Assembly (NCBI RefSeq): GCF_035594125.1
Contig: NC_087151.1
Span: forward strand, 20,537,253-20,601,252
Length of the DNA: 64,000 bases
Source of the DNA: Scylla paramamosain
Taxonomy: Eukaryota > Arthropoda > Malacostraca > Decapoda > Portunidae
Reading direction: 5' to 3'
Positions 6,731 through 28,412 of the stretch are shown here, piece after piece. The notes under the pieces are model-generated. The model was given only the letters and a program-made list of their open reading frames with translations, did no database searches and was not told where the DNA came from. Position 1 is the stretch's first letter; the number at the start of each line of letters is the position of its first letter. A program made the position numbers and the translations under genes.

Positions 6731-6733
6731 ATT

Positions 6734-7833: not shown

Positions 7834-8489
7834 AGCAGATAGACTTTCTCACAGGGCGGCTCATCCACAATATTTGTGCGCAGTTGAATTTCTTTGGGTA
7901 CGTTCGGGGATGAATCGCACCACAAATAACCGTGATCTCGTCTAAGCACGACATTTTTATAAATTTCCATAAAGTGTTTGGCGTGCTCCTTTCCATAAAG
8001 TTGCCTGCCCAGACATTCGATTTGATATATATCTCTGTTTTTCATAAGAATGTAATGTGAGGCATTTAAAGTTATCGTTCTAGCATACTTTCCGAGGAAA
8101 AAGACATTCTGCGCTATCATTATAACTGACAAATTTTTATGTCTCCCTTTGGTAAATGTCTCTGCTATCGTTTGAGAATTGCCAGCCATGAGGAAATTGT
8201 TATCTAATATCAAAAGCGTGTGCGTTTGCGGATCGGCATATGGATTGTCATCATCCATCACGGGATCAATAATTTTCTCATGCACTTTGACCTTATCTTG
8301 AAAAAGAGAATTCTGCTGCAGTGAATGCAATGAGACGCCACAAATAATAATTCTGTTAAATCCATGCTGATATTTCTCTATAATTTTATTGCAGAGATGT
8401 GTTTTGCCGGAATTTGTATAACCTGTGATAATTATGCATGTAGGATATCTGAAGAGATTCAGCATTTCTTTGCTAAATGTCTTGTCCAT
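7830..8489 (-). CDS. ATP: A32/FtsK-HerA-like packaging ATPase, intact in copy 1
   Basis: A 219-residue P-loop ATPase of the same length as copy 2. Walker A is GYTNSGKTH (residues 23-31). The Walker B strand is TLLILDNNF (91-99), in which the second acidic residue found in copy 2 (DD) is Asn. A sensor-like IMIAQN motif follows at 123-128. Family role: pumping the element's DNA into preformed capsids. The stop overlaps the integrase start by four bases. It is the only large gene of copy 1 without a break, but the D-to-N change at the position usually filled by the catalytic acid may impair hydrolysis. Upstream lies a repeat-bearing spacer (8490-8892). Confidence 0.87.
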   Translation of the reverse strand: MDKTFSKEMLNLFRYPTCIIITGYTNSGKTHLCNKIIEKYQHGFNRIIICGVSLHSLQQNSLFQDKVKVHEKIIDPVMDDDNPYADPQTHTLLILDNNFLMAGNSQTIAETFTKGRHKNLSVIMIAQNVFFLGKYARTITLNASHYILMKNRDIYQIECLGRQLYGKEHAKHFMEIYKNVVLRRDHGYLWCDSSPNVPKEIQLRTNIVDEPPCEKVYLL

Positions 8490-8892
8490 GTTAAGTTCAG
8501 AGGGTCACTAAAAGACGCTTCGATATGTTTACAGTATTTATTGCTTAACCTTTATTTACATGGTCATGTAGGTAACAGCATAACTAGCCTCCCCAGCTGC
8601 ATCCTCATCCCTGCCCTCTAATTATGGCGTGGATCTCTCCCGACTCACGCTTCTTCCTCAACCTCCTCTTTCCTCTCCTTAACCTAAGTACAAATGTTCT
8701 TACATTACCTCCTTCTCCTCCTCTTCCTCCTCTTCCTCTTCCTCCTCCTTATCCCACGTGGACAGTACAAATGTTCTTACATTACATGAACAATCCCCCT
8801 CATCCCCCTCCTTAATCACGTGGTCAATACAAATGTTCTTACATTACATGAATGGCAGCTGCTAGCCAACGTGGTCTCTCTCCACCCCTTAA
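8490..8892. promoter_or_regulatory. Spacer between polymerase 3' end and ATPase with iterated motif, copy 1
   Basis: There is no gene here. The 20-mer TACAAATGTTCTTACATTAC, or a close variant, occurs three times (about 8689, 8766 and 8828). Two copies are preceded by an E-box-like CACGTGG(A/T)CA and separated by C/T-rich tracts. The same iterated motif occupies the equivalent spacer of copy 2 (21317-21640). Position upstream of the ATPase-integrase-core gene block suggests a promoter or replication signal; that is inference. Confidence 0.4.
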
Positions 8893-11626
8893 TTATGATG
8901 TGAATAATGTCGTGGAAAGTCTCTCCCGATCACGCCACAGTCCACTCATTATCCCATCCTCCCCCTCCCCCTCCTCCTCCTCCTCCTCCTCCTCCTCCTC
9001 CTCCTCCTCCTCCCCCTACTCCACATCCTCTGCCACCTCCTCATCCATATCATTCTCCACACCTCTTTCCCGCTGATCATTGTCGGGGTGGTAATACGTG
9101 AAAGCGTTTGTCGTCAAAATGTGACAATGTACGCTTTCGCATGTGAGTGGTACAAATTTACCCTTTCACATTCCTGATATTATAGCAATCCACCATCCAA
9201 CATGCGCCATTATTAAGTGTTTCCCTATACTGCTGATGCAATATATTTTGCTGTTGGTGAGTTGGAATGCCTTTACCTCGAGATACTTGCTTGTCATCTT
9301 CCAACAGCAGCGAATACATCTTTGGTTTTAATATGATTGCCTCTTTGATGAGCGTGGATCCGGTTTTAGATTTCAGCAAGCCTAGTTGACCCTTCCGCTC
9401 CCCATTAAAACACATGTGATCTGAAGCAAAGTTACTGGTGTCGAGAAAATTTGCCATGGGTTCATGTTTCAGTTCATCATTTAAGTTTGTAGGTATGTGT
9501 AGACTGAATATGAAACTGTCAGTATCTTCACAAGCTGATTTAGCTCTCTCCCCATAATTAGCTTTGATGACACGATACCAAAAGTTGTACATGTACTTCT
9601 TTGCCACTTCTAAAATATGGTATCCCAAGTAATTTGGCTGACTGATTTTAATCGTATTCTTACTGTTGACGGATATGACTCGGTCCTCGCTTAATTGGTG
9701 TACCCTTTTAAAGGATGGATTTCTTGCATACTTCAGGAGAGACTTTCTTTTTGTCACTAATTTCTGTTAGAGGCCATACTTCACTTCAGATGACATGGAT
9801 CTGCCATAAACTGCGTTTGACATCAGTTTGCAAATGCGATTTTTAATGGTGCACGTCTCATTTTTATGCTGAGTAACGTTCCTTTCTATGAAAGGTTTCA
9901 GGTATGGAGCCTGTCTAAAGCTATATATAGCATGGACACATTATATTTTGCAGTCCAAGTGAGAGTAAAAGTTGCAGCAATTCCAGACTGATGAGATGAT
10001 CTTTCAGCCCCTTATGACTTGTCACGAGTTTACGATTTTTTCTTTCCAGCTTTTCGACCCTCAGCTTCTAACAGTCTTTTACTGTATGGCAAGATGTCAT
10101 CTTCTGTAATAGTCATGTGTGCGAGGCACAGAGAAAACTCGTCCATGACCCGGGCCACGTCGGGGGAAACATCGCAGGCGTCCAAATGCAGCCAGTAACC
10201 GATGTCACCATCTGTCGCGTGATTCTGGATGCCAACTTCAAAAAAACCATCCATCTCTGACTGAGAAAGTTTTTTGATGTTGCCCATAGACAGGGGGGAA
10301 CACATAACGGTTGCATATAATGAAATATAGTCCAGATAGAACACATAGGTGCCGGGTCCACCGTTGGGTTCATGGTTTGACTGCAGGTGTGGTCTGACAC
10401 AAGTTACAAAACCTCCCCGTACATTTCTTTTGATCAGGTGATACATGTTAGGATCGTAAGGCGGATCAAATTGAACGCCTGTCGACTTTAAAAAAAGCGT
10501 CATAAGCATAAGAAGACAGTGACACAATGTGCCACGTCCAGTCCATAAAATTCATGCAGGTATGATCTATATTTGAGATATGTGTCGGCTAATAACCCCA
10601 CATCAATGTCACAATACAGTTTTATGTAATCACCTACAGTGTGACAGGATGCCATACTCCACACGCATTCAGCGTGTTCATATTCTCCAGGTGACAGAGC
10701 CTTCTCCTTGAGCGTGTCATAAAATGCTTCGCGGGGTGGCAATTGCTGATCTTCTAAGCGGGCAAAGTCGGTGATGTACTCATAACAAAGAAACTGTTTT
10801 TGAGTCCAAATTACACGTCTTACATCCTCGGGGAGATAAATCAGCATCTCCTGGGCGTAACGCGTGTAATAACCCGCCTGCATGTGACTCTGAGCTAGAT
10901 GACTGAGGCCGGCATTCATAATGGAAAGCATGTCCTGAAACTGCAATTCCTTAATCCTTACTTTTAATAAATGCGATTCTGACTTGGCAAGGATGTCCAC
11001 GTGTGACGTGTGCATCGTGCGCACAATGCCCCCTTGTAATTATTTTGTGGTAATGAGTGGTCGTGATGTTTATGAGGTGGGGTTTTCACATTAAAGGGTT
11101 GATGGCAGAGTTCGCAGTGGCGCTGACGTTAAAAGTGGACTTCATCCTCTGCAGACATGCTAATTGGATAGCTAACTACACTTTCCTTGATGATTCGGCA
11201 AGCTTCGGATAGACTATCAATGAAATTATTCACGGGATCTTCGCCGAAATAACTTCTCTTTTCCACGGCATCTCCATGCCTATTGATGATGAGATACGAG
11301 TATCTAATTGGCTCATGTTCAGCTATCACACTCCTATTCTCCTTAGGTTTTATCATTGTTTCAAAATAAAAAATGCTAAGTAGGCAGGCTGATAGGTGTA
11401 GGCAAAATTTTTGAATTTTACTTTTTCAGCATCACCTGGAAAAAGAAGAGTTTGAGTGAAGTCGCAATGGCACTCGTAATCGCTCAAACTGACAGACTTG
11501 GGAACTGAGCTGAAACATATTTTGCAAAACTGATGACCCTCTGGGGTGGGAGTGCCACTCGACAATTTCTGGTGCAGCTTCTCCACATCTTTAATGAGCG
11601 TCATATGTCTTCCGCCTAGTAAAAAT
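8893..11626 (-). pseudogene. POLB: Protein-primed type DNA polymerase B, copy 1, 5'-truncated and broken
   Basis: Collinear with the copy 2 polymerase but cut at 11626, so the N-terminal region is missing. Recognisable parts include the RGG segment (KRNVRGGF), palm motif A (DYISLYATVM, 10030-10527 frame), motif B (KLMSNAVYG, near 9830), motif C (EDTDSF, 9158-9757 frame) and KPKMYSL. The residue before EDTDS is Cys rather than the Tyr of copy 2. Breaks include a deletion of about 110 bases near 11025 that removes the HNMSFD exonuclease segment, a frame change near 10510, and stops near 9765 and 9158. The acidic tail is encoded over a (TCC)n tract at about 8965-9012. Confidence 0.88.
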
Positions 11627-12930: not shown

Positions 12931-13849
12931 TCTTTCACGTCCCCCCACCCCCCAACCCACCCACCCAGGGGCGACTCTGACGGCAAGCCATATTGCGATG
13001 GGGATCCTGATAGCAATTTTCCATAGACCCAGGCTTGGGAAGGGGGGGGTGATTCACGACGCAAACACCAAGGGGGGGAGGGGGAAGGGGGGGGAGCGGG
13101 ACGGTGACGGCGACACTGACGGAGAGGTGGGGGAGGTGTGCGTCCTTATCCTTCGGCGACGATGGAATGACTAAATGAATCAATGATGGTGGGTGGAAAA
13201 TAATTGAGTGAAAGGGGGGGTGGTGTGGACTGGCGGCCAGACGTGGAAGTCGCCCACACACACGCGTGGTTAGGGGGGCTGTGACGGCAATGCCGTGTAG
13301 GTCGCCCTTTCCCCCTTTCATTCACGGGTATCCTGGAGGGTGGGATGGCTGAGTGTTGCCATTGCGTGTTCCCTCCGAAAACCTCAGTACATTCCAAGGT
13401 CGTCGCCGCTGGATGGTCAAAGGTCGGACGGAAAGGGAATGGGGTGGGGGGAGACCTGCACGTGTCAGGAAAGTGGCGGGCGACGCCGCCAGGTCCCATG
13501 CGGCCTTACGCCACCAGGAGCCATGCAGGCTTTTTTTTTTCTTTTTTTTTGGGCGGGAACGGGAAGTTGAGGGCTTAGAATGGGCCGCCGCGTGGACGTC
13601 ACGCGCTAGTTGCCAGCGCGGATCCTGGACAGTCTGGGTGGCGAGACTTGCCATCACGCGTTCCCTCCGACATCTCAATACATCCCCTATGGTCAAGGTC
13701 GTCGCGACAGCCTCACGAGGTTCCGTTACCTGTCCATCCTTTTTACCTGGAGGAAGCGTCTGTGACGGCCAGGGCGGAGTGGCGGCCTCTTCCACTTTCA
13801 CCGACCACCAGCGGCGTGGCTGACGTAATACTTATGCCGGATGGTCACC

Positions 13850-13893
<44 letters not shown>
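12931..13893. repeat. Left terminal inverted repeat of Polinton copy 2
   Basis: Matches the reverse complement of 27240-28008 over its full extent: the outer G/C-homopolymer-rich end (GGCGACTCTGACGGCAAGCC), the middle CACGCGTGGTTAGG segment, the CAAGGTCGTCGCGAC segment, then a (TTA)n tract at about 13850-13893. Subterminal units of about 60-80 bp are internally repeated. Homopolymer runs account for most length differences between the two ends. Confidence 0.88.
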
Positions 13894-13894
<1 letters not shown>

Positions 13895-13982: not shown

Positions 13983-14702
13983 TCAAAACATTTGCGAATT
14001 GAAGGCGAAGAGATCATCGTCATCGCTGTCAATGACGGGCGTAGTTTTAATAACTCTAGGAACCAGCTTCTTACGAGGAGCGGCTGGAGCAACGGGGAGT
14101 TTTGGTGTGTTGTCGTCCTCTGGCGTGTTAGGGGGAATATTCTTTTTTTTTTCTGTTTTCCTGCAACTTCTTCTTCGCCTCCTGACCCTCTTTGCCGCCT
14201 ACTGCCGACTCATCTGACCGTTGAGGCTGTGCTTCGGTCGGAGGTGGCATCAGCGACTCCTGAGGTGGCGGAATCGACTGCGATGCCGGCTGCTGCTGTT
14301 GCGACTCCTGTCCTGATGGAGCGTCAGGAGGTGGGCTGGCCGGCAGTGGCGACATGTCGTCATCACTAAAGATCAATTTCTTCTTTGCAGGTTCTGACAT
14401 TTTCTCCACATTGACATCCTCATGGTCGGCACGGCTTCGCTTACCCCCAGCATCGCCCAGATAGATATCAAAGCGGAAAGAGATGCGTTCTGTAACAGAC
14501 AAGAAAAAAAAAAAAAAAAAAAAAAAAAAAAACGATGAGAACAATGGAAAAGTTTTTATTTTCCCCTCCCACTCTCCCTCTTCTTATTCATTGGCAAAGA
14601 ACGTTAATGTAATTTACAATGGTGAAGATGTCAGATGCCGTGCAAGGCAATGGCGTACTCACCCGCAGTTCTCAAGATGAAATGTTTGTTAGCTTGCTCC
14701 AT
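13983..14702 (-). CDS. Short acidic two-exon gene, copy 2 (frame change at an A-run)
   Basis: Exon 1 is 40 nt (14663-14702), ATGGAGCAAG to a GTGAGT donor. Exon 2 begins at 14489 after a long polypyrimidine tract and TTACAG, and the exons join in phase with the open frame. The product starts with a short folded-looking segment (ERISFRFDIYLGD), then SEPAKKKLIF, then Pro/Gln/Ser-rich sequence. The frame stops at 14128, just after a run of nine A residues (about 14144-14152). In another frame the next 140 bases stay open to a TGA at 13985-13983 and encode an acidic end with DSDDDDLFAF. Copy 1 shows the same downstream segment, so the original gene probably ran to 13983. I do not recognise the family. 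Confidence 0.55.
14490..14662 (-). other. Spliceosomal intron in the acidic gene
   Basis: 173 bases from GTGAGTACGCC to a T-rich tract and CTGTTACAG on the minus strand. Donor and acceptor are at the same codon positions in copy 1 (1363 and 1237), although the intron interior has diverged. Conserved boundaries with frame continuity support real splicing. Confidence 0.7.
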
Positions 14703-14816
14703 TCTTGGAGATGAGGCTTCGACGTCCAACTGGGTTGAGAGGTGATGGCGAAGTGACGCTTATCCGTCAGCAATTACCCCATATTGACCCCCTTTCCCAC
14801 CCCCCCCACCCCCAAT

Positions 14817-15389
14817 CTACCTTATTACCGGTTTACAGATGTTACGACATCTCGCCCGGCTGCCGGCTGGGCAAAACGTAGGCATGCAATGCGGCTTATT
14901 ACAAAATATTACGTATGCCATACGAGTAATTTTTTTGTCATTATATAGATATTGATGCTTTTTGAAGGTGGCGTGAATAATGCACATTGCACGTTTTAAT
15001 GTATGCCAACTCAGTAGAAGGCAAAAGAACATGCAATAAATGCCACACACGAGGGAATTCAACCCCTGAAGTCGATAATTTAATGTGCTAATTTTCATAT
15101 GTGGACAAGTTTGCATAAAATGATGTAAGACAGCGGAATTGTATTTGGGATGCAAGTTATAGCTATCGTAATAGCCTATGGTCTGACTTTGAAAATTAAG
15201 ATAAACAGTAATCCAGTGGCCCATGGTCTTTGAGTCACTCAATGTATTTAGAATGAAAACGCATGGCTTCAGCTGTTTTCTGGCAAGATTTATCAGATCT
15301 GTCACATGGCGATGGTCGTGACAGCCTAAAAAATAAACTCGATCGCCCAAGATGCCTGCTAGACCGGCCTGTATTTCACGTGCATTCAT
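14817..15389 (-). CDS. PRO: Adenain-like cysteine protease (C5/Ulp1 fold), intact
   Basis: A 190-residue frame from ATG 15389-15387. The catalytic set is visible: His58 in GHW, Asp75 in YYDSYN, Gln108 and Cys115 in LQGLNSLVCGIYC. The His-to-Asp distance of 17 and Gln-to-Cys distance of 7 match adenovirus adenain. Family role: limited proteolysis of capsid and core proteins during particle maturation. It begins only six bases after the major capsid stop, so the two are probably read from one transcript. It has no signal peptide or membrane segment. Copy 1 has two stops in this gene. Confidence 0.92.
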   Translation of the reverse strand: MNAREIQAGLAGILGDRVYFLGCHDHRHVTDLINLARKQLKPCVFILNTLSDSKTMGHWITVYLNFQSQTIGYYDSYNLHPKYNSAVLHHFMQTCPHMKISTLNYRLQGLNSLVCGIYCMFFCLLLSWHTLKRAMCIIHATFKKHQYLYNDKKITRMAYVIFCNKPHCMPTFCPAGSRARCRNICKPVIR

Positions 15390-15395
15390 GACGGC

Positions 15396-16763
15396 TTATG
15401 CGCGGACAATGCAGCGAACGTGACGATAATGATCAATTTCTATGACGCCAGTAGTGTCGGCGAAAAACATTATGACGCGGTTGTGATTACGTTCCTTAGC
15501 AAAAGACAGATTAATTCTTAGATTTCCTGATTTATCCAGAGGGATGGCATTGTGCACGTCCTCCGTCACAAAGTTAAAGAAACATACTGTCCGAGCTTTA
15601 TTAAATGCATCAAATGTTAGGGAATTACGTGTGTCCAATCCTAGTGACTCAAGGGTCGTGTAAAACAATTTTGACGCGTGATGCGGGAAAGAGCTGCGAA
15701 CGTTATAAATGGTCGCCCCGTTCACGGTGATATGTACATGTGACAGATAGGCGTGTTGAAAATATAAACCATTCTTATCAATTACGCCTTGTAAGCTGTC
15801 CATATCAACTATTGCCATGGTCAAATTTTGAGGTATGATTTGCGCAAAAGGTAATTCGGCAATCAAAGACGTTTGATTGGCGGCTAACACATACGTTTTA
15901 TTGAGCGTTCTATTAAAAGTGTATTGCATTGGATTTCGAGTCAAGGAGGTATTTAACGATTCTAAGGCGGGCGGATGTGGCGTGACGCGGTCAACCCATA
16001 ACTTAGGCATCTCGAGCTTAAATTTGAAACTGCTGGCATCTTGGTGTGAATTAAGAATCCACGTTTTGTTAGCCAATTCTAATCGAATTCTCACATCAAC
16101 AGAGTCAAGCAGATAAGCGTCCAGACTTGATATATCTGAAAACAAAGGCGCAGTCATCGAAATGCCGTGCGTTTTACAATCTTTCATCATTTGCTTCTCG
16201 TCTTTATTCCCTCCCGTGAAATAGTCTTCATCAAATTTATTGATTATGCCTTTTGATCCATCATAATCGCGGTGGTAGAAGGCGACGCGACCGATAGAGT
16301 CAATTTTATTCTGAGGGATTGTTGTAATCATTTTAATGAAGGCGTGATAGTTGAACAAAGAGGATGACTCCACAAGCTGTTCGTTAAAATAGCAAGCGCA
16401 TGACTTAAACATCGTATTATTCAAACCATTACTAAAAACGACGTGATCGTCATCGTCTAGTGGCGCACCGTCTGCCTTCGTCGCACTAACCCGCAATTCT
16501 AGAGATAGCGTTGATAGATCCAAAAATTGTCCTGGAATACCAGGCAGTCTAAATTCAATGTAAGGATCGTTAATTCCCGCATGATTATTAGCATTTGCGT
16601 CTAAATTAACGGGTAAAACGTCCAACTTTCCCCTCGCAGCGACTGACGATTCGATGGTATGCAGGCGATTCACCCGCGGAAAGTTCTCACTCACGGCCGT
16701 CAGATAATTGCTCAGGGGGGTGGAGGTCGCTCCACCCTGCACATCCGGTCCGTAATGAGTCAT
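15396..16763 (-). CDS. MCP: Polinton major capsid protein (double jelly roll), intact
   Basis: A 455-residue frame from ATG 16763-16761. After a variable N-terminus it has INDPYIEFRLPG (64-75), DLSTLSLEL (82-90) and a characteristic block at about 114-145: LNNTMFKS, FNEQLVESSS, NYHAFIK, followed by FYHRD. This order resembles the F54H12.2-like Polinton capsid family, whose members form the hexon-like double jelly roll. The rest is beta-rich with no obvious membrane segments. It lies between the small Gly-rich virion protein (54 bases upstream) and the protease (6 bases downstream), a capsid-module arrangement. A distant NCLDV/adenovirus-type capsid fold is expected; I infer the fold from the family. 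Confidence 0.82.
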   Translation of the reverse strand: MTHYGPDVQGGATSTPLSNYLTAVSENFPRVNRLHTIESSVAARGKLDVLPVNLDANANNHAGINDPYIEFRLPGIPGQFLDLSTLSLELRVSATKADGAPLDDDDHVVFSNGLNNTMFKSCACYFNEQLVESSSLFNYHAFIKMITTIPQNKIDSIGRVAFYHRDYDGSKGIINKFDEDYFTGGNKDEKQMMKDCKTHGISMTAPLFSDISSLDAYLLDSVDVRIRLELANKTWILNSHQDASSFKFKLEMPKLWVDRVTPHPPALESLNTSLTRNPMQYTFNRTLNKTYVLAANQTSLIAELPFAQIIPQNLTMAIVDMDSLQGVIDKNGLYFQHAYLSHVHITVNGATIYNVRSSFPHHASKLFYTTLESLGLDTRNSLTFDAFNKARTVCFFNFVTEDVHNAIPLDKSGNLRINLSFAKERNHNRVIMFFADTTGVIEIDHYRHVRCIVRA

Positions 16764-16817
16764 CTTCGCGACTAAGCTAAATATTGAAGATATCTGCTTT
16801 ATAGCAAGTCTTTCTTT

Positions 16818-17204
16818 TCAGTTACCTGGTTGGTGGTTTTCTCTTTTTTTTTTTTTTCCGACTCCAACTTTCCTCTTTTTCATTACTCGTCCGCCTCGAA
16901 CTATCCCTTCCCCCACGCCCTTCACGGCTGCAACACCTCTATTTCTTAATGATTCGCGAAGTCGCTTCCCCTCTAAAACATCTGTTAATAAACCTTTTCC
17001 CATTTGGAGCGCTTCGAGTGCCACAGTGCGCATGAAAAAGGGAATTGCTCTTTTAGCAAAGCCACTCAAAACGGAAAATAGGCCACCACCTCTTCTTGAA
17101 TGGGGTGGAATAAAAACCCGGATGTCGTCTAAACCTCCACCTTTGCTTTGCGTAAAAAGCAAGTCGTATTCCGCTCGAGTGGGAGGTGCGAACGCTCTCG
17201 TCAT
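16818..17204 (-). CDS. Small glycine-rich basic protein, pVI/pX-type virion candidate
   Basis: The first ATG is at 17204-17202, giving 128 residues; the open frame extends to a GTG at 17216, which is unlikely in a eukaryote. Features in order: a polar N-terminus with FTQSKGGG, a RRGGG turn, an amphipathic hydrophobic stretch (LFSVLSGFAKRAIPFFM), a helical GKGLLTDVLEGKRL segment, and a strongly basic tail ending near KKRKVGVGKKKKR. This resembles the minor virion or core proteins that accompany Polinton and adintovirus capsid genes. The tail could bind DNA or act as a nuclear import signal. Not intact in copy 1. Confidence 0.65.
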   Translation of the reverse strand: MTRAFAPPTRAEYDLLFTQSKGGGLDDIRVFIPPHSRRGGGLFSVLSGFAKRAIPFFMRTVALEALQMGKGLLTDVLEGKRLRESLRNRGVAAVKGVGEGIVRGGRVMKKRKVGVGKKKKRENHQPGN

Positions 17205-17252
17205 GATGGATGTCACGTCATGAATAAGACGTCGAGCATAATCACCGACTAT

Positions 17253-17434
17253 TTATTTCTGTCTGATATGCAGCAAGAGTGTAATCGATTTACCCTCCTA
17301 AAGTGAATGACTCGGCTAACTTGATCCGCGAGTTGACTCGCAATCGAATCGATAATAGTTTACTGAGCGATTTATACGCAGTCTTTGGCGTTGTCCAGAC
17401 TCGTCAAATACAGATAATGCTCCGCTCCCGCCAT
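17253..17434 (-). pseudogene. Remnant of penton-like protein 1, internal deletion in copy 2
   Basis: Only the first few codons (ATG at 17434-17432) and the last 130 bases or so of the gene remain. They are joined where copy 1 continues for another 670 bases (copy 1 positions about 4088-4755). Small length differences also disturb the frame at the 3' end. The deletion removes the jelly-roll portion, so copy 2 has no usable penton 1. Confidence 0.8.
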
Positions 17435-17533
17435 GACCAAAATAAATAATAACTGCCACCCCAATTAAGGAATACATTCATACTCGATTCGTCAAACACA
17501 CATCAACTTTATTTTAAAATTTACATGATATAG

Positions 17534-18202
17534 TTATTCAGTCTTCCTCACCAGAATAGTTTCAACTCCAAAAGGTTGAAGTCGCTGCGCCAGCCCTTCC
17601 ACCATAGGCAGGTAATTATTCCTCCACTCATCCTGGCAGCGACCTCTACATCCCAGTCCTTCCGGGATAATAATTTGCTCTACTTCAGCGTTCGCCATGG
17701 CTAGCAGGGCAATCTTTTTCAGGCAATTCTGGAAGTGTTGGCGTCGATTCATGCTTGTATCCATCTTGAGTCCTTCCACGTAAGGCAAATCCTTCGACGT
17801 CGCGATTGCCTGTCGCGCCTTCTCGTTACCCTCGACGGCCTCGCCCCAACCATACTGAGTCACGCAGGCCACCAGGTGAGGGAGATTTACGCTTCCTGTG
17901 GGAGGCGCGTGGATAATGATACGTCCTGGGTCATCTCTCGTGTCTGCCGTGGCCCGATGAAGCGAGTAGAGTCTCTTTCTAGCTGCATGTGTATTCTCGT
18001 ATGGGTAAATCGTTTTGAGATCCCGCGCAATCCCACTCGGTTCGGTGGAGACAGCATTTACTGAGTAAATGATATAACAGCGGCGGTCGCGGAAGATGCC
18101 ATCGGTCAGCTTGCCCTCGACCACCTTCATCTTGACGAGTAATTGGAGGGCTGATCCACACGTTGAACCCTCTGTGAGGGGAGTGAGGGGGAAATGTGAC
18201 AT
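17534..18202 (-). CDS. Macrodomain-like protein, intact
   Basis: A 222-residue frame from ATG 18202-18200. The C-terminal 120 residues contain VNLPHLVACVTQYGWGEA, a predicted helix (FQNCLKKIALLAM), then IIIPEGLGCRGRCQDEW and a last strand (GVETILV). This strand-Q-loop-helix-strand-P-x-G-x-G-W-helix layout is that of POA1/ADP-ribose-1''-phosphatase-type macrodomains, which bind or hydrolyse ADP-ribose groups. The N-terminal 100 residues are unassigned. It lies between the 171-residue gene and penton 1. The single-nonsense copy 1 version confirms it is a real gene. The macrodomain call is tentative; the 297 bases upstream (18203-18499) show nothing coding. Confidence 0.55.
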   Translation of the reverse strand: MSHFPLTPLTEGSTCGSALQLLVKMKVVEGKLTDGIFRDRRCYIIYSVNAVSTEPSGIARDLKTIYPYENTHAARKRLYSLHRATADTRDDPGRIIIHAPPTGSVNLPHLVACVTQYGWGEAVEGNEKARQAIATSKDLPYVEGLKMDTSMNRRQHFQNCLKKIALLAMANAEVEQIIIPEGLGCRGRCQDEWRNNYLPMVEGLAQRLQPFGVETILVRKTE

Positions 18203-18499
18203 CGCGGACCTTTATTCGCACGTATTGGTCGATATTATACCTCCTGCGTAGTAGAATTTATTCATTCAAATTGACGCAGGTGCTATTTTTTTTTCCTTTG
18301 TTTGGTGGGAAGGGCTGGAGGGCGGGGAACGTATTATTTATTAGGGGATGTGGGTAATGGGGGGAGTGAACCTTTTTTTGACCATAACCCTCATCAATTA
18401 TCCATCCGTGGGCCTGCACCCCTGACGCGCCTAACACGTGCTCTCATGTATTATTGATGTACTTACTCGTTTACAGAGTAAGATGGGGAGCTTTCTCAT

Positions 18500-19017
18500 T
18501 TAATATGCTTCCCAGATGTCACCGACCCCGCCACCTATCAGTTTACTTCATTGAGTCGTATTTCTGATGGCATCCGCGGGGAGTTGCGCCATGCGAAGTA
18601 GCAGTGATAATAATGGACGCTTATCGGGTGAAAGTCTTTTCGCGACCCCCTTTTCGTGACCGAGTACTCGTATGAGATCAAACACGCTTACGCCAGAAAA
18701 TGGTGGAAGTAAGTTACTGCGCTCATCCCATGAAATCCCAGGTTTACCCTCCAATAATTTCAAGAGAGATAGACCATATTCTCTAAAGGAAGGAGGAACG
18801 GCAACTCGAATCAAATCATCCAAGGGTGGATTGACGGGCGCGCGTGGTGGTGGTGTCGCGGTGGTTGTGTCGGGGAGGGCGGCGGCCGGCAGCGGAAGTG
18901 AAGTTTTTTTTTTTTCTTGACTTGTTTTGACGTGAATCGGTGCTGAGTTGCGCTGTCGGTCGGTTTAAACTTACACCTCTCGGCAACTGAGACGGGAACT
19001 AAACAATATTCTTTCAT
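18500..19017 (-). pseudogene. Conserved 171-residue Polinton protein, copy 2, broken
   Basis: Counterpart of 5875-6390. The ATG (19017-19015) overlaps the upstream core-type stop. An expanded T-run at about 18904-18915 shifts the frame within the linker, and an Arg codon has become TGA at 18550-18548, ahead of the original TAA at 18502-18500. The C-terminal half remains readable between these breaks (18548-18823). Confidence 0.8.
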
Positions 19018-19355
19018 CTCTGTAGTAAACTTGTTATTGCCGACACGGCTATCGGGAGTAACGCTGCCAATATGCTGCCACCTCGTTTGGAGATTAGAAT
19101 GGCCTTCTTCTTGTACACGGGCGTCTTCTTCAAGGCTACAGTGCGAATATCACTCTTGAATTTTTTCAGGCGGTTAATGATGGTATCGTCGTCCGTCAGG
19201 CGTTTCTTCAAAAAGTTGGCGAATATTTCCGAGATGCAATTGACTTCGCGCTTATTCAAACTTTGCAAGACCTGCTTCCGCAATTTAGGGGTGACGTGCG
19301 AGAGGAGGAAAACCAAATCCTTGTACTTCAATATCAATGGTTTTTCCTCATCCAT
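19014..19355 (-). CDS. Small core-type protein with basic/hydrophobic C-terminus, intact
   Basis: A 113-residue frame from ATG 19355-19353, three bases after the integrase stop. It has a helical Leu-rich N-terminal half (TPKLRKQVLQSLNKREVNCI), a Lys/Arg-rich middle (KKTPVYKKKAILISKRGG) and a C-terminal hydrophobic segment (ILAALLPIAVSAITSLL). A small protein of the form K-L-R-K ... R-G-G ... hydrophobic end recurs in Polintons and adintoviruses and is thought to be a virion core or membrane-active component; that role is inference. Its stop overlaps the next gene's ATG (ATGA). Confidence 0.7.
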   Translation of the reverse strand: MDEEKPLILKYKDLVFLLSHVTPKLRKQVLQSLNKREVNCISEIFANFLKKRLTDDDTIINRLKKFKSDIRTVALKKTPVYKKKAILISKRGGSILAALLPIAVSAITSLLQR

Positions 19356-19358
19356 ATC

Positions 19359-20459
19359 TTATACTAAGTCGTCCGCATCTATCCAGCTGTCAAATTTATC
19401 TGGATATCCACGCCAGTGGACGAAGTACTTTCTCCTACCTCGCTCGACCTTCGATCGTAATATATCGACCTGGTAATGTGAAGGAAGAGAGGACTTGATT
19501 AATTCTTCCCTGTAGAAAGCGCCGGTCACGTCCTCCCTCGCCAAATCCCTTATGAAATAAATAGGGATTTTATGTGAGTAATCCACACGACTTATCTTAA
19601 AAAGCTCCTCGGTATTGTTGACGGTATAACCCTTATTGAATTTAAATTGCGTTCGGGAAGCACGTTGCAAGCGTACAATGTCTCCCACGTCTAATTTATG
19701 ACTGACAACTTTCTTTCCCCTTGGCCGATTTAAATATATTCGTTTAAATTGCTTCCTGACTTGTGACAGCTCGCGGAGGCGGTGAACCTGAGCCGGCGTT
19801 TGGCTGCCACCCAAACCGCGGTATGGGGTGTGATTGTACGTGTTTATTAGGGTGGGCAAGACGTTAATATACGTCAGTCTATTGTTCTGCGTGAGATATT
19901 TATATATTTTTGTCTTTATGGTTCGGATGACCCTTTCTGCCAAACTCGCCTTTGTTTCACGCGAGTAATTGGAATACAAGGTAATACCTTTCAAAGTTAG
20001 ATATTTTTTCACTGCTTGATTATAAAATTCGGATCCCTGATCGGTAAAAAGACGCGACACGCCTGTAAAACTCCCCGACTCTAGAACTTTTTTCAGCGCT
20101 TGCAGGCTACTGCGTCCGGATTTACTTGTCAGCGTTGCCACTTTCAAGTACCTGCTGAAGACGTCCAGGCAAAACATGACGTATCGGACGCCGCCATTGT
20201 GTCTGTGCAGCCTCGCAAAATCAGCCAAATCGCAAGTTAAAATGACGGACGGTTTAGGAGCGAGAATTTTTCGTCGCGGAAAACGTTTCAGCGTCGGCTT
20301 GTAAAGCGTATAAGTGCGGTTGCCCTGCAGAAATGCCCTCACATCGCGGAGTGTTAGATTCTTATCCCTTTTCTTCCCCTCTCTGTAGAGTGCTTGCACA
20401 CCTCCTAAAGCCGCAGGATTCGTCATATCCCGGTAAAGTTCGTCCAAAACGGCGTTCAT
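19359..20459 (-). CDS. INT: Polinton integrase with C-terminal chromodomain, intact
   Basis: A 366-residue frame from ATG 20459-20457. The rve core shows the acidic triad: Asp77 in TCDLADF, Asp140 in FTDQGSEFYN, and Glu175 in KASLAERVIRT. A chromodomain ends the protein (about 331-366: YFVHWRGYPDKFDSWI). Family role: joining the element's termini to chromosomal DNA, with the chromodomain likely steering it to modified chromatin. The ATG overlaps the ATPase stop by four bases and the stop lies three bases before the core-type ATG. There are no breaks, in contrast to copy 1. Confidence 0.95.
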   Translation of the reverse strand: MNAVLDELYRDMTNPAALGGVQALYREGKKRDKNLTLRDVRAFLQGNRTYTLYKPTLKRFPRRKILAPKPSVILTCDLADFARLHRHNGGVRYVMFCLDVFSRYLKVATLTSKSGRSSLQALKKVLESGSFTGVSRLFTDQGSEFYNQAVKKYLTLKGITLYSNYSRETKASLAERVIRTIKTKIYKYLTQNNRLTYINVLPTLINTYNHTPYRGLGGSQTPAQVHRLRELSQVRKQFKRIYLNRPRGKKVVSHKLDVGDIVRLQRASRTQFKFNKGYTVNNTEELFKISRVDYSHKIPIYFIRDLAREDVTGAFYREELIKSSLPSHYQVDILRSKVERGRRKYFVHWRGYPDKFDSWIDADDLV

Positions 20460-21115
20460 AGCAGATAGACTTTCTCACAGGGTGGCTCATCCACAATATT
20501 CGTGCGCAGTTGAATTTCTTCGGGTGCGTTCGGGGATAAATCACACAACAAATAACCGTGATCTCGTCTAAGCACGACATTTTTATAAATTTCCACAAAG
20601 TATTTGGCGCGCTCCCTTCCATAAAGATGCCTGCCCAGACATTCAATTTGATATATATCTCTGTTTTTCATAAGAATGTAATGTGAGGCATTTAAAGTTA
20701 TCGTTCTAGCATACTTTCCGGGGAAAAAGACATTCTGTGCTATCATTATAACTGACAAATTTTTATGTCTCCCTTTGGTGAAAGCCTCTGCTATCGTTTG
20801 AGAATTGCCAGCCGTGAGGAAATTGTCATCTAATATCAGGAGTGTGTGCGTTTGCGGGTCGGCGTATGGACTGTCATCATCCATCACGGGATCAATAATT
20901 TTCTCATGCACTTCGACCTTATCTTGAAAAGGGGAATTCTGCTGCAGCGAATGCGATGAGACGCCACAAATGATAATTCTGTTAAATCCATGCTGATATT
21001 TCTCTATAATTTTATTGCAGAGGTGTGTTTTGCCGGAATTTGTATAACCTGCAATAATTTTGCGTGCAGGATATCTGAAGAGATTCAGCATCCCTTCGCT
21101 AAATGTCTTGTCCAT
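20456..21115 (-). CDS. ATP: A32/FtsK-HerA-like packaging ATPase, intact
   Basis: A 219-residue protein with Walker A GYTNSGKTH (23-31), Walker B TLLILDDNF (91-99; Asp96-Asp97) and IMIAQN (123-128). Length and motifs match Polinton/NCLDV A32-type genome-packaging ATPases. It leads a packed run of minus-strand genes: ATPase, integrase, core-type, 171-residue protein. Unlike copy 1, it keeps both Walker B acids. A repeat-bearing spacer (21116-21693) lies upstream. Confidence 0.92.
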   Translation of the reverse strand: MDKTFSEGMLNLFRYPARKIIAGYTNSGKTHLCNKIIEKYQHGFNRIIICGVSSHSLQQNSPFQDKVEVHEKIIDPVMDDDSPYADPQTHTLLILDDNFLTAGNSQTIAEAFTKGRHKNLSVIMIAQNVFFPGKYARTITLNASHYILMKNRDIYQIECLGRHLYGRERAKYFVEIYKNVVLRRDHGYLLCDLSPNAPEEIQLRTNIVDEPPCEKVYLL

Positions 21116-21693
21116 GTTAAGTTCAGAGGGTTACTAAAAGACGCTACGATATGTTTACAGTATTTATTGCTTAACCTTTATTTACATGGTCATGTAGGTA
21201 ACAGCATAACTAAACTCCCAGCTGCATCCTCATCCCTGCCTTCTAATTATGACGTGGATCTCCCCCGACCCACACCTCTTCCTCAACCTCCTCCTCCCTC
21301 TCCTTAACCTACCAAAGTACAAATGTTCTTACATTACCTCCTCTTCTTCCGCCTCCTCCTCCTCATCCTCCTTATCCCACGTGGACAGTACAAATGTTCT
21401 TACAGCACATGAAGAAATCCCCTTTCATTCCTCTCCTTAACCCCACACTCAAAACAAATGTTCTTACATTACATGAATGGCAGCTGCTAGCGGCCGCGGT
21501 CTCTCTCAACCCTTAATTATGACGTGAATAATGTCATGGAATGCCACTCCCGATCACGTCACAGCCCACTCATTAACCCATCCTTCACCTCCCCCTCTTC
21601 CTTAGCCTACGTGGTCAGTACAAATGTTTTTTTTTTTACATTACATGAAGGGCGGCTGCTAGCAGCTGCGTCCCCTCTTTCTCTACCCCTTAA
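21116..21693. promoter_or_regulatory. Spacer between polymerase 3' end and ATPase with iterated motif, copy 2
   Basis: There is no gene. TACAAATGTTCTTACATTAC-type motifs begin at about 21318, 21389, 21455 and 21619; the last is stretched by a T-run. A block of about 170 bases (ending GGCAGCTGCTAGC-like and including CACGTGGTCAGTACA) is duplicated here compared with copy 1. Runs of TCC/TTC separate the motifs. A promoter or replication signal role is inferred from conservation of motif and position in both copies. Confidence 0.42.
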
Positions 21694-24600
21694 TCACGAT
21701 GTGAATAATGTCGTGGAAAGTCTCTCCCGATCACGCCACAGACCACTCATTATCCCATCCTCCCCCTCCCCATCCCCCTCTTCCTCTTCCTCCTCCTCCT
21801 CCTCCTCCTCTTCCTCATCCACCTCCACCTCCCCCACATCCACCGCCACCTCCTCTTCCATCTCATTCTCCACATCTCTTTCCCGCGGATCATTGTCGGG
21901 GTGATAATACGCCCTTGAGGTATAGCCATCGACGTGAAAGCGCTTGTCGTCAAAATGTGACAACGTACGCTTTCGCATACGAGTGGTACAAATTTGTCCT
22001 TTCACATTCCTGATATTATAGCAATCTACCATCCCACATGCGACATTATTAAGTGTTTCCCTATACTGCTGATGCAATATATTTTGCTGAAGGTGGGTTG
22101 GAATGCCTTTACCTCGAGATACTTGCTTGTCATCTTCCAACAGCAGCGAATACATCTTTGGCTTTAATATAATCGCCTCTTTGATGAGCGTGGATCCGGT
22201 TTCAGATTTCAGCAAGCCTAGTTGACCCTTCCGCTCCCCATTAAAACACGGGTGATCTGAAGCAAAGTTACTGGTGTCGAGAAAATTTGCCATGGGTCCA
22301 TGTTTCAGTTCATCATTTAAGTTTGTAGGTATGTGCAGACTGAAAATGAAACTGTCAGTATCTTCATAAGCTAATTTAGCTCTCTCCCCATAATTAGCTT
22401 TGATGACACGATACCAAAAGTTGTACATGTACTTCTTTGCCACTTCTAAAATATGGTATCCCAAGTAATTTGGCTGCCTGATTTTAATCGTATTCTTACT
22501 GTTGACACATATGACTCGGTCCTCGCCTAATTGGTGGACCCTTTTAAAGGATGGATTTCTTGCATACTTCAGGAAAGACTTTCTTTTTGTCACTAATTTC
22601 TGTTGGAGGCCATACTTCACTTCAGATAACACTTCAGATAACGCTGAGCGACGTTCCTTTCTATGAAAGGTTTCAGGTATGGAGCCTGTCTGAAGCTATA
22701 TATAGCATGAACACATTGTATTTCCAGTCCAAGTCAGAGTAAAAGTTGCAGCAATTCCAGAGTGATGAGATGATCTTTCAGTCCCTTATGACTGGCCACG
22801 AGTTTACGATTTTTCCTCCCCAGCTTACGACCCTCAGCTTCTAACAGTCTTTTACTGTACGGTGAGATGTCATCTTCTGTAATAGTCATGTGTGCGAGGC
22901 ACAGAGGGAACTCGTCCGTGATCCGAGCCACGTCGGGGGAAACGTCACAGCTGTCTAAATGCATCCAGTAACTGACGTCACCATCTGTCGCATGATTCTG
23001 GATGCCAACTTCAAAAAAATCATCCATCTCTGACTGAGAAAGTTTTTTGATGTCGCCCATAGGCAGGGGGGAACACATAACGCTTGCATATAATGAATTA
23101 TAGTCCAGATAAAACACATAGGTGCCGGGTCCACCGTCGGGTTCGTGGTTTGACTGCAGGTGTGGCCTGACGCAAGTTACAAAGCCTCCTCGTACATTTC
23201 TTTTGATCAGGTGATACATGTTAGGGTTGTAAGGTGGATCAAGTTGAACGCCTGTCGACTTTAAAAAAGCGTCATAAGCATAAGAAGACAGTGACACGTA
23301 ATGTGCCACGTCCAGCCCATAAAATTCATGCAGGTATGATCTATATTTGAGATATGTGTCGGCTAATAATCCCACATCAATCTCACAATACAGTCTTATG
23401 TAATCGCCTAAAGTGTGGCAGGATGTCATACTCCACACGCTTTGAGCGTGTTCATATTCTCCAGGTGACAGAGCCTTCCCCTTGAGCGTGTCATAAAATG
23501 CCTCGCGAGGTGGCAATTGTCGATCTTCTAAGCGGCCAAGGTCGGTGATGTACTCATAACAAAGAAACTGTTTTTGAGTGCAAATTACACGCCTTACATC
23601 CTCGGGGAGGTAATTCACCATTTCCTAGGCGTAACGCGTGCTATAGCCCGCCTGCACGTGACTCTGAGCGAGATGACCGAGGCCGGCATTCATAATGGAA
23701 AGCGTGTCCTGAAACTGCAATTCCTTAATCCTTACTTTCAATAAATGCGATTCTGACTTGGCAAGGATGTCCACGTGCGACTCTGGCAAGTGAAGGTCTT
23801 TTATGATTAAGGAGACGTCAAAGCTCATATTATGTGCCAGAGTGATGAGATATTTCCTCATGTCACGACACTGAAGGTTGCATCGCGCGCACAATGCCCC
23901 CTTGTAATTATTTTGTGGTAATGAGTGGTCGTGATGTTTATGAGGTGGGGTTTTCACATTAAAGGGTTGATGGCAGAGCTCGCAGTGACGCTGACGTTTG
24001 AAGTGGTCTTCATCCTCCGCAGACATGCTAATTGGATAGCTAACTACACTTTCCTTGATGATTCCCCAAGCATTGCATAGGCTATCAATGAAATTATTCA
24101 CGGGATCTTCACCGAAATAACTTCTCTTTTCCACGACATCTCCATGCCTATTGATGATGAGATACGAGTATCCAATTGGGTCATGTTCAGCTATCACACT
24201 CATATTCTCCTTAGGTTTTATCATAGTTTCAAAAAAAAAAAATGCTAAGTATGCAGGCTGATAGGTGTAGGCAAAATTTTTAAATTTTACTTTTTCACCG
24301 TCACCTGGAAAGAGAAGAGTTTGAGTGAAGTCGCAGTGACACTCGTGATCGCTCAAACTGACAGACTTGGGAAGAGCTGAAACATATTTTGCAAAACTGA
24401 TGACCCTCTGGGGTGGGACAGCTTCTCGTCAATTTCCGGTGCAGCTTCTCCACGTCTTTAATGAGCATCATATGTCTTCCGCCTAGTAAAAGGAGTGAGA
24501 CTACAGTTTTATACTTCCGCGAGCCTTTTCTTGATAATGTTAAATAGTATATCTCACCGCTTTTTGTCAGTGTATAAACGTCCAGAGACAGACAATTTAA

Positions 24601-25364
24601 TCTTTCTAATTGACTCAAGTTCTCCCAAGTCACTGGACTGTCTACTTTTCCGCGCGTGACGTATTTCTCTCCGCCATGTCGTCTCCGTAATATTTTTGGA
24701 ATTCTTTTCCAAGGTACACCTCGAGCATGAAGTCTGAAAGCCGCCAAACACTGAATAACACAGGATGAATGTCGGCCATCAGGATTGAAAATTTCATTCC
24801 CTCCTCGCACGCCTCTAGGATAAGCAACATAATCTCCTATGCCACTACATGCGACGTGTAAGCAATAGTTGATGAAAAAATTCTGTACTCATGAAATGAT
24901 AAAACCAGATCCTTCAGTCTCGCTGGTAAGGCTTTCCAGCCGACTGTTCAGCTGATGGATCCATAAATCAACAAGGTCAGGCACATCTTGATAGGTGATC
25001 AGTCGTGCTCTAAAAGCAATATGAATGACTCGATGTTCATCCTCGCCTAAGGTAGAAAATTTCACTAGTAACAGAGAAATGTGTGAAAATATTTTCAGGG
25101 TAGGGGGAAATGGCGAGCCGTGCGACGTGAAATATGATCTAATTTCCCGTATAAAGAACTCCCTGTATTCGGTAAGTAGACCGAGTGGATCTCTGCTTAC
25201 ATGATCAGGTATGTCATATTGATGTCTGGTGAAGCTCCTCATAAAATTTTCCCTCGAGTCAATTAACCGCGGCTCTTCCGGCATCCCGCGCTCGTCAAGG
25301 TCTGCATCCGCCGACTCTCCTGCCATGCTGCGCTCATCGTGGTCCGACTCCGCTTGTGGCGTGT

Positions 25365-25397
25365 CTGGAGAGAAAAAAATAGAAGTAGCAGCGACAG

Positions 25398-25451
<54 letters not shown>

Positions 25452-25823
25452 GAATTGATATTTACCTTGTGTAGGTAGTGAAGGAATTGAAGTCTCGGAA
25501 GAATTGAATACGTTCCCCGATAATCCACTCGGTCCCGGCCGTGGCGAGTCTTAAAAAAAATAATATTAGTAGTGGCGGCGGCACCGTATTTATTGGTTTA
25601 TTATTTGTAGTATTTTTTTTTTCTCACCTCTTCCCCCGCCTCCGCGTGGAATGCCGCCTTGTGACGCCCGCCGACGTGCGCCTTCTACGCCGCCGTTCTG
25701 TCCAACCTCAATCGAGTGTGAGCCTGTACAGGAAGATGTGCTCAGAGTTCAAACTTGTAGAGATTGACAGTCATTTCATCTTTATTATTATACATTCCCG
25801 CCAAAATAAGTAATAATGTTTAC
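25365..25823 (-). other. Three phase-1 introns and two small exons at the polymerase 5' end
   Basis: Intron 1 is 25724-25823 (GTAAAC...GTACAG), intron 2 is 25550-25627 (GTGAGA...TTTAAG), and intron 3 is 25365-25465 (GTAAAT...CTCTCCAG); the last contains a (TTA)n microsatellite at 25398-25452. Each interrupts a codon after its first base, and the exons between (96 and 84 nt) keep one open Gly/Ser/Pro-rich frame. Consistent phase and canonical GT-AG ends across three junctions make chance unlikely. Confidence 0.6.
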
Positions 25824-26007
25824 CAGAAGAAGCAGGATTGCCAACTTCGCAGGTGTGTTCTGGTGGTGGATGTGGAAACAGAAGTCCACACCACTCGCAT
25901 AAATCACACTGGTCTTCCACACATGAGGGGCAGGATGGATTAGTGCGCCATCTCCCACACACTTCACATAAAAGCCGCGCCTCTGCTGTTCCACAGTGAA
26001 CACCCAT
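25824..26007 (-). other. Cys-rich first exon, probably of the polymerase gene
   Basis: ATG at 26007-26005 and 61 codons plus one base before a GTAAAC donor. It encodes Cys5, 14, 17, 26, 29, 34, 37, 40 and 53 with His51, arranged as CEVC, CPSC, CDLC and CEWC, a probable zinc-binding domain. Open frame and matching phase-1 junctions link it to the downstream exons and hence to the polymerase. It could instead be a separate small gene. The 213 bases upstream (26008-26220) show no gene. Confidence 0.5.
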
Positions 26008-26220
26008 TTTTCTTTTCTTTTTTTTTCTATAACATTGTTAACACTTTCGTCCCGGCCGCCATGCCGCGCGGGGAAACACTGAAGCTTCCCGCGCAGATGG
26101 TCGCGAGGTGCGTGACTTGTCTCGGAAGTAGGCAACACCTGCCTGTTTCATTATCCTCCACTCCACCCATTATCCCACCTTGATCGATTCTCTTCAAAAC
26201 TTTACGTCCGAGACGCAAAG

Positions 26221-27139
26221 TTAACGTGGTCTTATATGTAACACGCAAGTAACACTGTTTTCCCCATCTTCAAACTGAATAGGTTTGCCTCTTTGATTAG
26301 CAATTTTGATGGCTACACTCTCTATAGTTGATACAGAAAGTGGTTTATACGTAATTGAATTCGCACCTTTACTGGTGCTGTCGCCGGGGAGTGGTATGAC
26401 GTCTAATATATTAACTAGTTGGTTACCAAATCGCGAGGGGGAAATGATGTCGGTACATATAATCCGTCCCTGCATCAGCTCGCGGTACGTATTGAGCGAA
26501 TAATTTTATGGGTAATGAGGAGGAAGCTTCGCTCGCGCTGGAAGATGAAATGACGTCGCCAGATCTTTGAAAGTAGACGGTGTAGCGAAAATTTGGATTG
26601 AAACCCAGAATGCGAGCTATATGCGATGCAAATTTTATACTTATATCACTGTAAATACGATCGTCATTAGGAGGGACAATCGCGTTATTCACAACGACCC
26701 GCTCCAAGTCGTGGTCATAATAAATGATATCCGAGTAAGGGAAATAGATCTTAAAGGAGTCATTCAAGATTGCTTGAAGTTCTCTCACTATCTGTCCATT
26801 AATCGCCTTAGTTATGGCTGGTATGTTCTTATCGGTAAAATTGGAGATGATATTCCTTTCCGGTAGATAGGTATACATATTATATTCATACATATCAAAG
26901 TCTGACTACTTAACCCGACCATAGAGCGATATACTGGAATTTGGATCCCCTTCCGTAATGCAGTAGAAATATTTAGGGAATAAAATATTACACAGGCCGA
27001 CTTCATAATCCCTGCCGGTGTCTAAATTAATGGGTAAGATTCTGTTTTCAAATTCTGTTGTTGTGTTTTTGGGAAATGACCTACCACCTGCAAGAGAAGA
27101 TAGGTATACGTATATATCGTCACTATCTCTCAACGACAT
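26221..27139 (-). pseudogene. Penton/minor capsid-like protein 2, broken
   Basis: ATG at 27139-27137. The N-terminus has the same opening pattern as penton 1 (YVYLSSL...FPKN...FENRI...L...RDYEVGL...LFPKYF), and the C-terminal part (26221-26475) matches the penton 1 end (GKPIQFEDG, HIRPR). The middle includes IARILGFN, again shared. The gene is interrupted by an in-frame TAG at 26908-26906 and a frame change near 26500. The two proteins are clearly paralogous but diverged, so this is not a recent duplication. It is the first gene next to the right terminal repeat; 27140-27239 contains nothing coding. Confidence 0.7.
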
Positions 27140-27239
27140 GTTTTTTAAACCCTGTCAACTAACAGACTGACTTTAAACTTTACTTTTTCATGACATATAT
27201 ACGTCGACAGACTGGAGATTATAGCGGTACAGCGTGGAT

Positions 27240-27317: not shown

Positions 27318-27369
<52 letters not shown>

Positions 27370-28008
27370 TGATAATGAGACCGCCATCCGACATAAGTAT
27401 TACGTCAGCCATGCCGCTGGTGGTCGGTGAAAGTGGAAGAGGCCGCCGCTCCGCCCTGGCCGTCACAGACGCTTTCTCCAGGTAAAAAGGATGGACAGGT
27501 AACGGGATCTCGTGGGGCAGTCGCGACGACCTTGACCATAGGGGATGTATTGAGATGTCGGAGGGAACGCGTGATGGCAACACTCAGTCATCCCACCCTC
27601 CAGGATTCCCGTGAATGAAAGGGGGAAAGGGCGACCTACACGGCATTGCCGTCACAGCCCCCCTAACCACGCGTGTGTGTGGGCGACTTCCACGTCTGGC
27701 CGCCAGTCCACACCCCCCCCCTTTCACTCAATTATTTTCCACCCACCATCATTGATTCATTTAGTCATTCCATCGTCGCCGAAGGATAAGGACGCACGCC
27801 TCCCCCACCTCTCCGTCAGTGTCGCCGTCACCGTCCCGCTCCCCCCCTTCCCCTCCCCCCCCCTTGGTGTTTGCCGTCGTGAATCACCTCCCCATTCCCA
27901 AGCCTGGGTCTATGGAAAATTGCTATCAGGATCCCCATCGCAATATGGCTTGCCGTCAGAGTCGTCCCTGGGTGGGTGGGTTGGGGGGTGGGGGGACGCG
28001 AAAGGGTG
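27240..28008. repeat. Right terminal inverted repeat of Polinton copy 2
   Basis: Reverse complement of 12931-13893. It contains two subterminal units (27240-27299 and 27522-27581) sharing GTCGCGACGACCTTGACCAT, separated by an (ATA)n tract at about 27303-27366. It ends in G/C homopolymers. The long isoleucine-rich frames across it come from the microsatellite and are not genes. Confidence 0.88.
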
Positions 28009-28412
28009 ACCTACACGGCATTGCCGTCACAGCCCCCTAACCACGCGTGTGTGTGGGCGACTTCCACGTCTGGCCGCCAGTCCACACCCCCCCCCCCTCT
28101 TTTCACTAAATTATTTTCCACCCGCAATCATTGATTCATTTAGTCATTCCATCGTCGCCGAAGGATAAGGACGCACGCCCCCCCCACCTCTCCGTCAGTG
28201 TCGCCGTCACCGTCCCCCCCCCCCCCTTGGTGTTGCCGTCGTGAATCACCACCCTCCCCTTTCCCAAGCCTGGGTCTCCATCCTGAAATGGACTGCCACT
28301 GAAGTCTACGGAAAATTGCTGTCAGGTTTCCCCATTGCAACTTGATAAGGTCCACACTCGCAATATGGCATGCCATCAGAGTCGCTCCTGGGGGTGGGGG
28401 TGGGATCCAGCA
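28004..28412. repeat. Extra tandem copy of the outer terminal repeat
   Basis: Repeats 27627-28003 in the same orientation (GACCTACACGGCATTGCCGT through TGGGTCTC...CAATATGG...GCCATCAGAGTCG). It differs by two segments totalling about 50 bases that are present only here. It then passes directly into reverse-oriented satellite. It may be a tandem duplication of the terminus or the stub of a second Polinton. Confidence 0.8.

Follow-up and report, generated by a model that had tools for sequence, protein, structure and literature searches.

Graded states of a putative penton gene and a macrodomain-like protein in a young Polinton-like element family of Scylla paramamosain

Intact vertebrate Mavericks contain eight conserved open reading frames (ORFs), or seven in the case of Xenopus tropicalis. 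These form two modules that usually lie on opposite strands, and accessory regions flank the core (PMC8097293). In Polintons, the penton PX sits near the capsid gene, one gene away from it (PMC4028283). Adintoviruses are defined by a chromodomain integrase, an OTU-like N-terminus of the family-B DNA polymerase (PolB) and a hexon recognised by BLASTp, and adintoviruses with duplicate or missing pentons are on record (PMC11071296, section 16 for the pentons). Wsv206-like proteins of nimaviruses carry a macro domain, and wsv206 has been proposed for the nimavirus core set (PMC7016691). Here we analyzed two minus-strand copies of one element in a 64,000-nucleotide stretch of Scylla paramamosain DNA (G000:C1:20537253-20601252; the window), together with related copies in a searched genome of 1.21 Gb and 234 contigs. 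We propose, with a probability of roughly 0.6, that they belong to a recently amplified family of Polinton/Maverick-type endogenous viruses, with stepwise loss of a first penton (penton 1), take-over by a second (penton 2) and a macrodomain directed at ADP-ribose.

Penton states across the family

The body of penton 1 is gone from copy 2 of the window. Remnants located by tblastn with pieces of the copy 1 penton surround an internal deletion, seen also as a gap in the blastn alignment of the two copies (Table 1), and this remnant state recurs in six other copies. Penton states were scored in 48 stretches downstream of the macrodomain gene and 40 upstream of it, hand-picked across the range of macrodomain identity. 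Both end pieces of penton 1 are fully covered in 10 of the 48 downstream stretches (L029, L031-L035, L037, L044, L045 and L086), and the gene is partly left in four others (L030, L036, L038 and L041). Seven stretches (state B1) have an internal deletion that leaves up to residue 24 of the N-terminal piece and residues 68-111 of the C-terminal piece; in another seven, copy 2 of the window among them (state B2), up to residue 24 and residues 77-111 are left. No trace of penton 1 was found in 19 stretches (state C), one of which (L079) is also without most of the next gene. A single older copy (L087, G000:C71:773911-775961; 79%) has a different and perhaps independent deletion, after which the N-terminal piece retains residues 2-72 and the C-terminal piece residues 48-111.

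Upstream, 27 of the 40 stretches hold a full or almost full penton 2 (at least 80% coverage of every piece); it is partial in two and absent from 11, and it forms one open 313-codon frame in 23. Where both stretches of a state B or C copy were sampled (27 copies, excluding copy 2 of the window, in which penton 2 is broken), the gene is full-length in 26 and open over 313 codons in 23. Two older copies retain more: C11:12885098 (macrodomain 86%) holds both pentons, its penton 2 pieces being 66-91% identical to those of the window apart from one short overlapping match at 56%, and C9:23905840 holds penton 1 plus part of penton 2. The sequence-only reading had assigned two pentons to the element. 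This is supported for older copies such as C11:12885098, but the young subfamily has one penton, and what that reading saw in copy 2 is an intermediate state of penton loss.

The order of these states was read from a tree built on roughly 850 nt of adjacent DNA, penton 1 excluded, which kept 44 of 49 rows and omitted L036, L038, L041, L045 and L079 because too little of their flanks matched. Copies with full penton 1 are outermost, B1 copies branch off ladder-like, and a B2 clade (six rows, support 99/96; L040, also B2, falls elsewhere) and a no-trace clade (18 rows, support 100/99) come last. This order points to a single shared internal deletion and two later reductions, each on a branch of its own. 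Copy 1 clusters with seven older copies at 21-24.2 Mb of the same contig, C1. Another row, L088 (G000:C22:21682237-21684287), has its flank inside the young B2 clade and a macrodomain match of 72% with three stops, and is possibly a mosaic copy.

In copy 2, penton 2 is split into three pieces. Its end pieces match those of penton 1 at 41% (E 1e-16) and 40% (E 7e-18), so that the second penton-like gene read at 26221-27139 is supported at both ends, but the middle piece has no match to the copy 1 penton. A single gene separates penton 1 from the capsid gene, and the N-terminal pattern of the pentons resembles one that we take to be typical of Polinton minor capsid proteins. From these sequence features, both genes are likely, though not proven, to encode pentons, and the label is used here as a putative one.

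The macrodomain gene

The frame of the macrodomain gene is open over its whole length, as had been read, and encodes 222 amino acids counted from the first methionine. It has 20 database matches with 49-99% identity over the matched part. Eleven of these were aligned with it (alignment A3, 12 rows), and four of the 11 start exactly at residue 25; its true extent may therefore be 17534-18130. The predicted structure (mean predicted local distance difference test score 75.3, predicted template modelling score 0.74) has a macrodomain fold of the TARG1/Poa1p class. Macrodomains lead the Foldseek list against PDB (top E 1.7e-5), and the best rows of VIA-align were TARG1 (13.2; 141 aligned, 3.1 A), a Bacteroides protein (13.0), DarG (12.6), ALC1 (12.4) and Poa1p (12.3). 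SPX-domain entries also appear in the Foldseek list, some of them described as crystallised by a carrier, presumably a macrodomain. In BFVD the top row was a wsv206-like protein of a Metapenaeus nimavirus (E 2.6e-7, template modelling scores 0.60/0.66, 16% identity). The description as macrodomain-like is thus upheld by fold but not by sequence: searches of Pfam, PHROGs and PDB sequences with the protein gave no macrodomain match. A DUF459 match in Pfam (one of 12 family members, E 3.7e-4) was set aside.

N49, G57, D61 and G118 are invariant in the 12 rows of A3, and we assume that these residues lie near the ligand loops. With an invariant Gln where TARG1 would have its catalytic Lys, ADP-ribose binding appears better supported than hydrolysis. 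The ratio of nonsynonymous to synonymous divergence (dN/dS) between copies 1 and 2 is 0.31 for this gene and 0.22-0.45 for the others, which shows constraint during spread and is no proof of activity. A ratio of nonsynonymous to synonymous polymorphism (pN/pS) of 0.08 from eight copies was discarded, since the best protein matches had been chosen and the value was biased.

Gene content, ends and spread of the element

The features of the two copies are listed in Table 1. Integrase with chromodomain, A32-type ATPase and family-B polymerase, whose pieces were searched separately, pass the Pfam cut-offs, and the capsid protein has a double jelly-roll fold; the standard kit of the sequence-only reading is recovered in these genes, but its protease falls below the cut-off. 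The capsid model scored higher against capsids of nucleocytoplasmic large DNA viruses (NCLDV) and virophages than against adenovirus hexon. Its top BFVD match was an uncharacterised Cotesia bracovirus protein (E 5.5e-21, 17% identity), which may hint at a Maverick-like remnant in that bracovirus. In the acidic gene, sequence inspection gave a GT donor and a polypyrimidine/AG acceptor before about 14489, and copy 1 contains a counterpart of its exon-2 ORF (14128-14583) at 69%; the spliced gene is plausible at its edges, with splicing predicted from sequence only. The ORF core144 occurs in most sampled downstream stretches, and the Cys-rich ORF, which adjoins penton 2, in 26 of the 27 sampled upstream stretches with full-length penton 2.

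Table 1. Features of the two element copies in the window (positions from the first letter of the window)
Feature	Position	Strand	Remarks
Copy 1 (older, truncated)	1..11624	-	penton 1 pieces 3956-4830
Left terminal inverted repeat	12944..13894	.	aligned in parts; traced out to 12944
Acidic, probably spliced gene	13983..14702	-	ATG near 14702; frame broken downstream in copy 2
Cysteine protease (adenain/Ulp1-like)	14817..15395	-	Pfam Peptidase_C48 E 0.0011, under curated cut-off
Major capsid protein, 454 aa, double jelly-roll	15396..16760	-	fold comparison
Small ORF core144 (our label)	16818..17252	-	between capsid gene and penton 1 site
Penton 1 remnants around internal deletion	17256..17452	-	residues 77-111 (C-terminal piece) and 2-24 (N-terminal piece) of copy 1 penton
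Macrodomain gene	17534..18202	-	fold matches; possible start at 18130
Conserved gene, two frames in copy 2	18548..19358	-	no Pfam family
Integrase with C-terminal chromodomain	19359..20474	-	Pfam rve E 1.3e-8, Chromo E 7.3e-7 (residues 337-370)
Packaging ATPase	20456..21130	-	Pfam Pox_A32 E 2.1e-5, over cut-off
Family-B DNA polymerase with N-terminal extension, several frames	21694..25398	-	DNA_pol_B_2 E 9.1e-13 on 22737-23624
Cys-rich ORF	25771..26037	-	no family found
Penton 2 (putative)	26221..27154	-	broken in copy 2; similarity to penton 1 end pieces
Right terminal inverted repeat	27334..28404	.	traced out to 28404

On the suggested decapod lineage, only one of 37 capsid relatives has an organism name (Penaeus japonicus LOC122242213, 59%). 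Scans of IMG/VR with the capsid protein, the capsid alignment, both macrodomain alignments, the integrase and the ATPase yielded no confirmed match; phage records searched with integrase and ATPase, and PDB searched with the capsid alignment, gave none. Contigs of 5706 and 5678 recur in both the capsid and the macrodomain match sets, and these shared sizes suggest that the two genes sit together in two relatives.

Copy 2 is bounded by inverted repeats traceable from 12944 to 28404, giving a size of about 15.5 kb. The arms of the left repeat are 89-97% complementary to parts of 27334-28008, and many other copies extend beyond 28404 in a C-rich tract. A search for a 6-bp target-site duplication at the ends of copy 2 matched only A-runs and one chance-like word, none convincing. 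Copy 1 begins in the first few hundred bases of the window and ends abruptly at 11624; it therefore offers no counterpart to penton 2, the Cys-rich ORF or the greater part of the polymerase N-terminal region, except that penton 2 matches penton 1 at its N-terminus. Five long blastn pieces with 88-94% identity join 293-11624 to 13600-24491 in the same order, and the claim of two copies with one gene order holds within these limits and not beyond them. The view that the arrangement is real, as had been stated, is supported by the same neighbours in sampled copies on many contigs; an assembly artefact is rejected in view of the number of copies.

At least 150 genomic matches to the macrodomain protein (150 scored of 300 candidates) were obtained, on 57 contigs by manual row count. 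The top 59 are 98-100% identical and free of internal stops. In the 4-kb right-hand stretches of 17 young copies, the median difference is 1.5% (range 0.1-3.2%; 136 of 136 pairs), and the family is young and highly amplified. The 300-nt tails of 19 upstream stretches showed no match in 152 of 171 pairs, which fits separate insertions, some tails still lying within the repeat. Fourteen old matches to the macrodomain (82-87%) lie between about 20.5 and 24.3 Mb of C1, and all are interrupted by one or more internal stops; upstream of the seven sampled, no penton 2, Cys-rich or polymerase N-terminal pieces were found, and these matches are probably one truncated copy spread by segmental duplication. 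A diverged tandem repeat of the host, with a unit of about 96-100 bp (77 copies matched, at 11621-12905 and 34680-64000 of the window), flanks the element copies and has opposite orientations to the left and right of copy 2. LINE-like (long interspersed nuclear element) copies, 74-94% alike and some inverted, occur at 30661-32643, 37805-39700, 42870-45180 and 55580-57900; one frame has what we take, by eye, to be a reverse-transcriptase-like motif.

Alternative explanations and comparison with known systems

According to the proposed explanation, the family would replicate with its own polymerase, integrate via its chromodomain integrase and build a double jelly-roll capsid. The ancestor would have had two pentons, the first at the usual site by the capsid gene and the second close to the terminal repeat at the other end. 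After a shared internal deletion, penton 1 would have lost slightly more sequence in one branch and disappeared altogether from another, and penton 2 would have assumed the role at the capsid vertices of the subfamily with most copies. The macrodomain would bind ADP-ribose and reverse or mask host antiviral ADP-ribosylation. Of this account, the copies, the penton states with their order and the macrodomain fold are observed, and the function of the pentons, the take-over at the vertex and the activity of the macrodomain are inferred. A farther-reaching version seems doubtful to us: a vertex protein swap still in progress, from a two-penton ancestor through partial deletion to a successful single-penton clade that uses the divergent penton, with a macrodomain gene exchanged with nimaviruses of the same kind of host, which are unrelated DNA viruses, very large and not related in their other genes.

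Several points weigh against the proposed explanation. No named penton was matched by sequence in Pfam or in PDB searches with the end-piece alignments, so the name rests on position, mutual similarity and the presumed N-terminal pattern. The sample was taken by hand from a ranked list and is non-random, "full" penton 1 does not imply an open frame, macrodomain identities take the window's own copy as their reference, and the tree was rooted at its midpoint for drawing only. The pN/pS of 0.49 among the 23 open frames of penton 2 argues against mere passenger status for the sequence, but selecting open frames lowers it a little (post-insertion decay shifts it toward 1). None of 12 family members matches Pfam Macro, and A3 has an invariant Gln where we assume TARG1 to have its catalytic Lys, so hydrolysis may be lost. 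Finally, among the 13 copies that have penton 1 in full or in part, 11 are without penton 2 in the sampled stretch, and the two-penton ancestor therefore rests on two copies.

The last count would also suit a recent capture of penton 2 by some lineages, older copies never having had two pentons; we consider this quite unlikely, because C11:12885098 and C9:23905840 combine penton 1 with all or part of penton 2, and seven of the 11 are C1 copies that, like copy 1, are without that whole end. Dispersal over so many contigs and stepwise loss are likewise compatible with a dispensable penton 1, in a young family moving as a transposon without virions or borrowing proteins from other copies, the loss being decay and not replacement. 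This too is unlikely given the pN/pS of penton 2, the open frame that it keeps in 23 of the 27 state B or C copies, and a dN/dS of 0.22 between copies 1 and 2 for the capsid gene. It is possible, though we lean the other way, that the macrodomain protein is a reader or structural virion protein which has kept only the fold and is no ADP-ribose enzyme: the missing Pfam match, the invariant Gln and the location among virion genes speak for it, and the four invariant residues, by their presumed place near the ligand, against it.

As in Polintons and Mavericks, the element has PolB, an rve integrase, an A32-type ATPase, a likely protease, a double jelly-roll capsid protein and terminal inverted repeats; penton 1 occupies the place of PX (PMC4028283), and the size is inside the 12.7-24.6 kb range (PMC8097293, PMC4028283). 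It differs in the macrodomain gene, the second penton by the far terminal repeat and the short 454-aa capsid protein. Its genes lie on a single strand, as in Xenopus tropicalis elements, and penton 2 takes the accessory position of vertebrate Mavericks (PMC8097293). The adintovirus-like character previously proposed is supported by the C-terminal chromodomain; the polymerase N-terminal part (24304-24888), searched for an OTU-like domain, drew no Pfam or PDB match, no capsid relative among the 37 is named adintovirus, and the capsid model is closer to NCLDV and virophage capsids than to the hexon. The words "macro domain" and "macrodomain" are absent from the main text of PMC11071296. Nimaviruses, which are DNA viruses of decapods, likewise carry a macro domain (PMC7016691), and the wsv206-like protein was the element's best viral structure match, a likeness by fold comparison only at 16% identity. 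From the macrodomains of TARG1, Poa1p and DarG it differs in sequence (10-18% identity) and in the catalytic Lys that we assume for them.

Because duplicate and missing pentons are on record for adintoviruses (PMC11071296), a second penton alone is no novelty. We take to be new the macrodomain and the graded series joining penton states within one family; the literature matches listed held no paper linking macro domain or macrodomain with Polinton, Maverick, virophage or adintovirus, which leaves absence from print unproven. The path between penton states, which the available text of PMC11071296 does not give, can be read from differently aged copies in one genome, and vertex-protein replacement becomes testable through them. 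If true, a Polinton macrodomain would bring the ADP-ribosylation conflict into this virus group and would hint at gene traffic with nimaviruses of shrimp, in which the wsv206-like proteins also contain a macro domain (PMC7016691).
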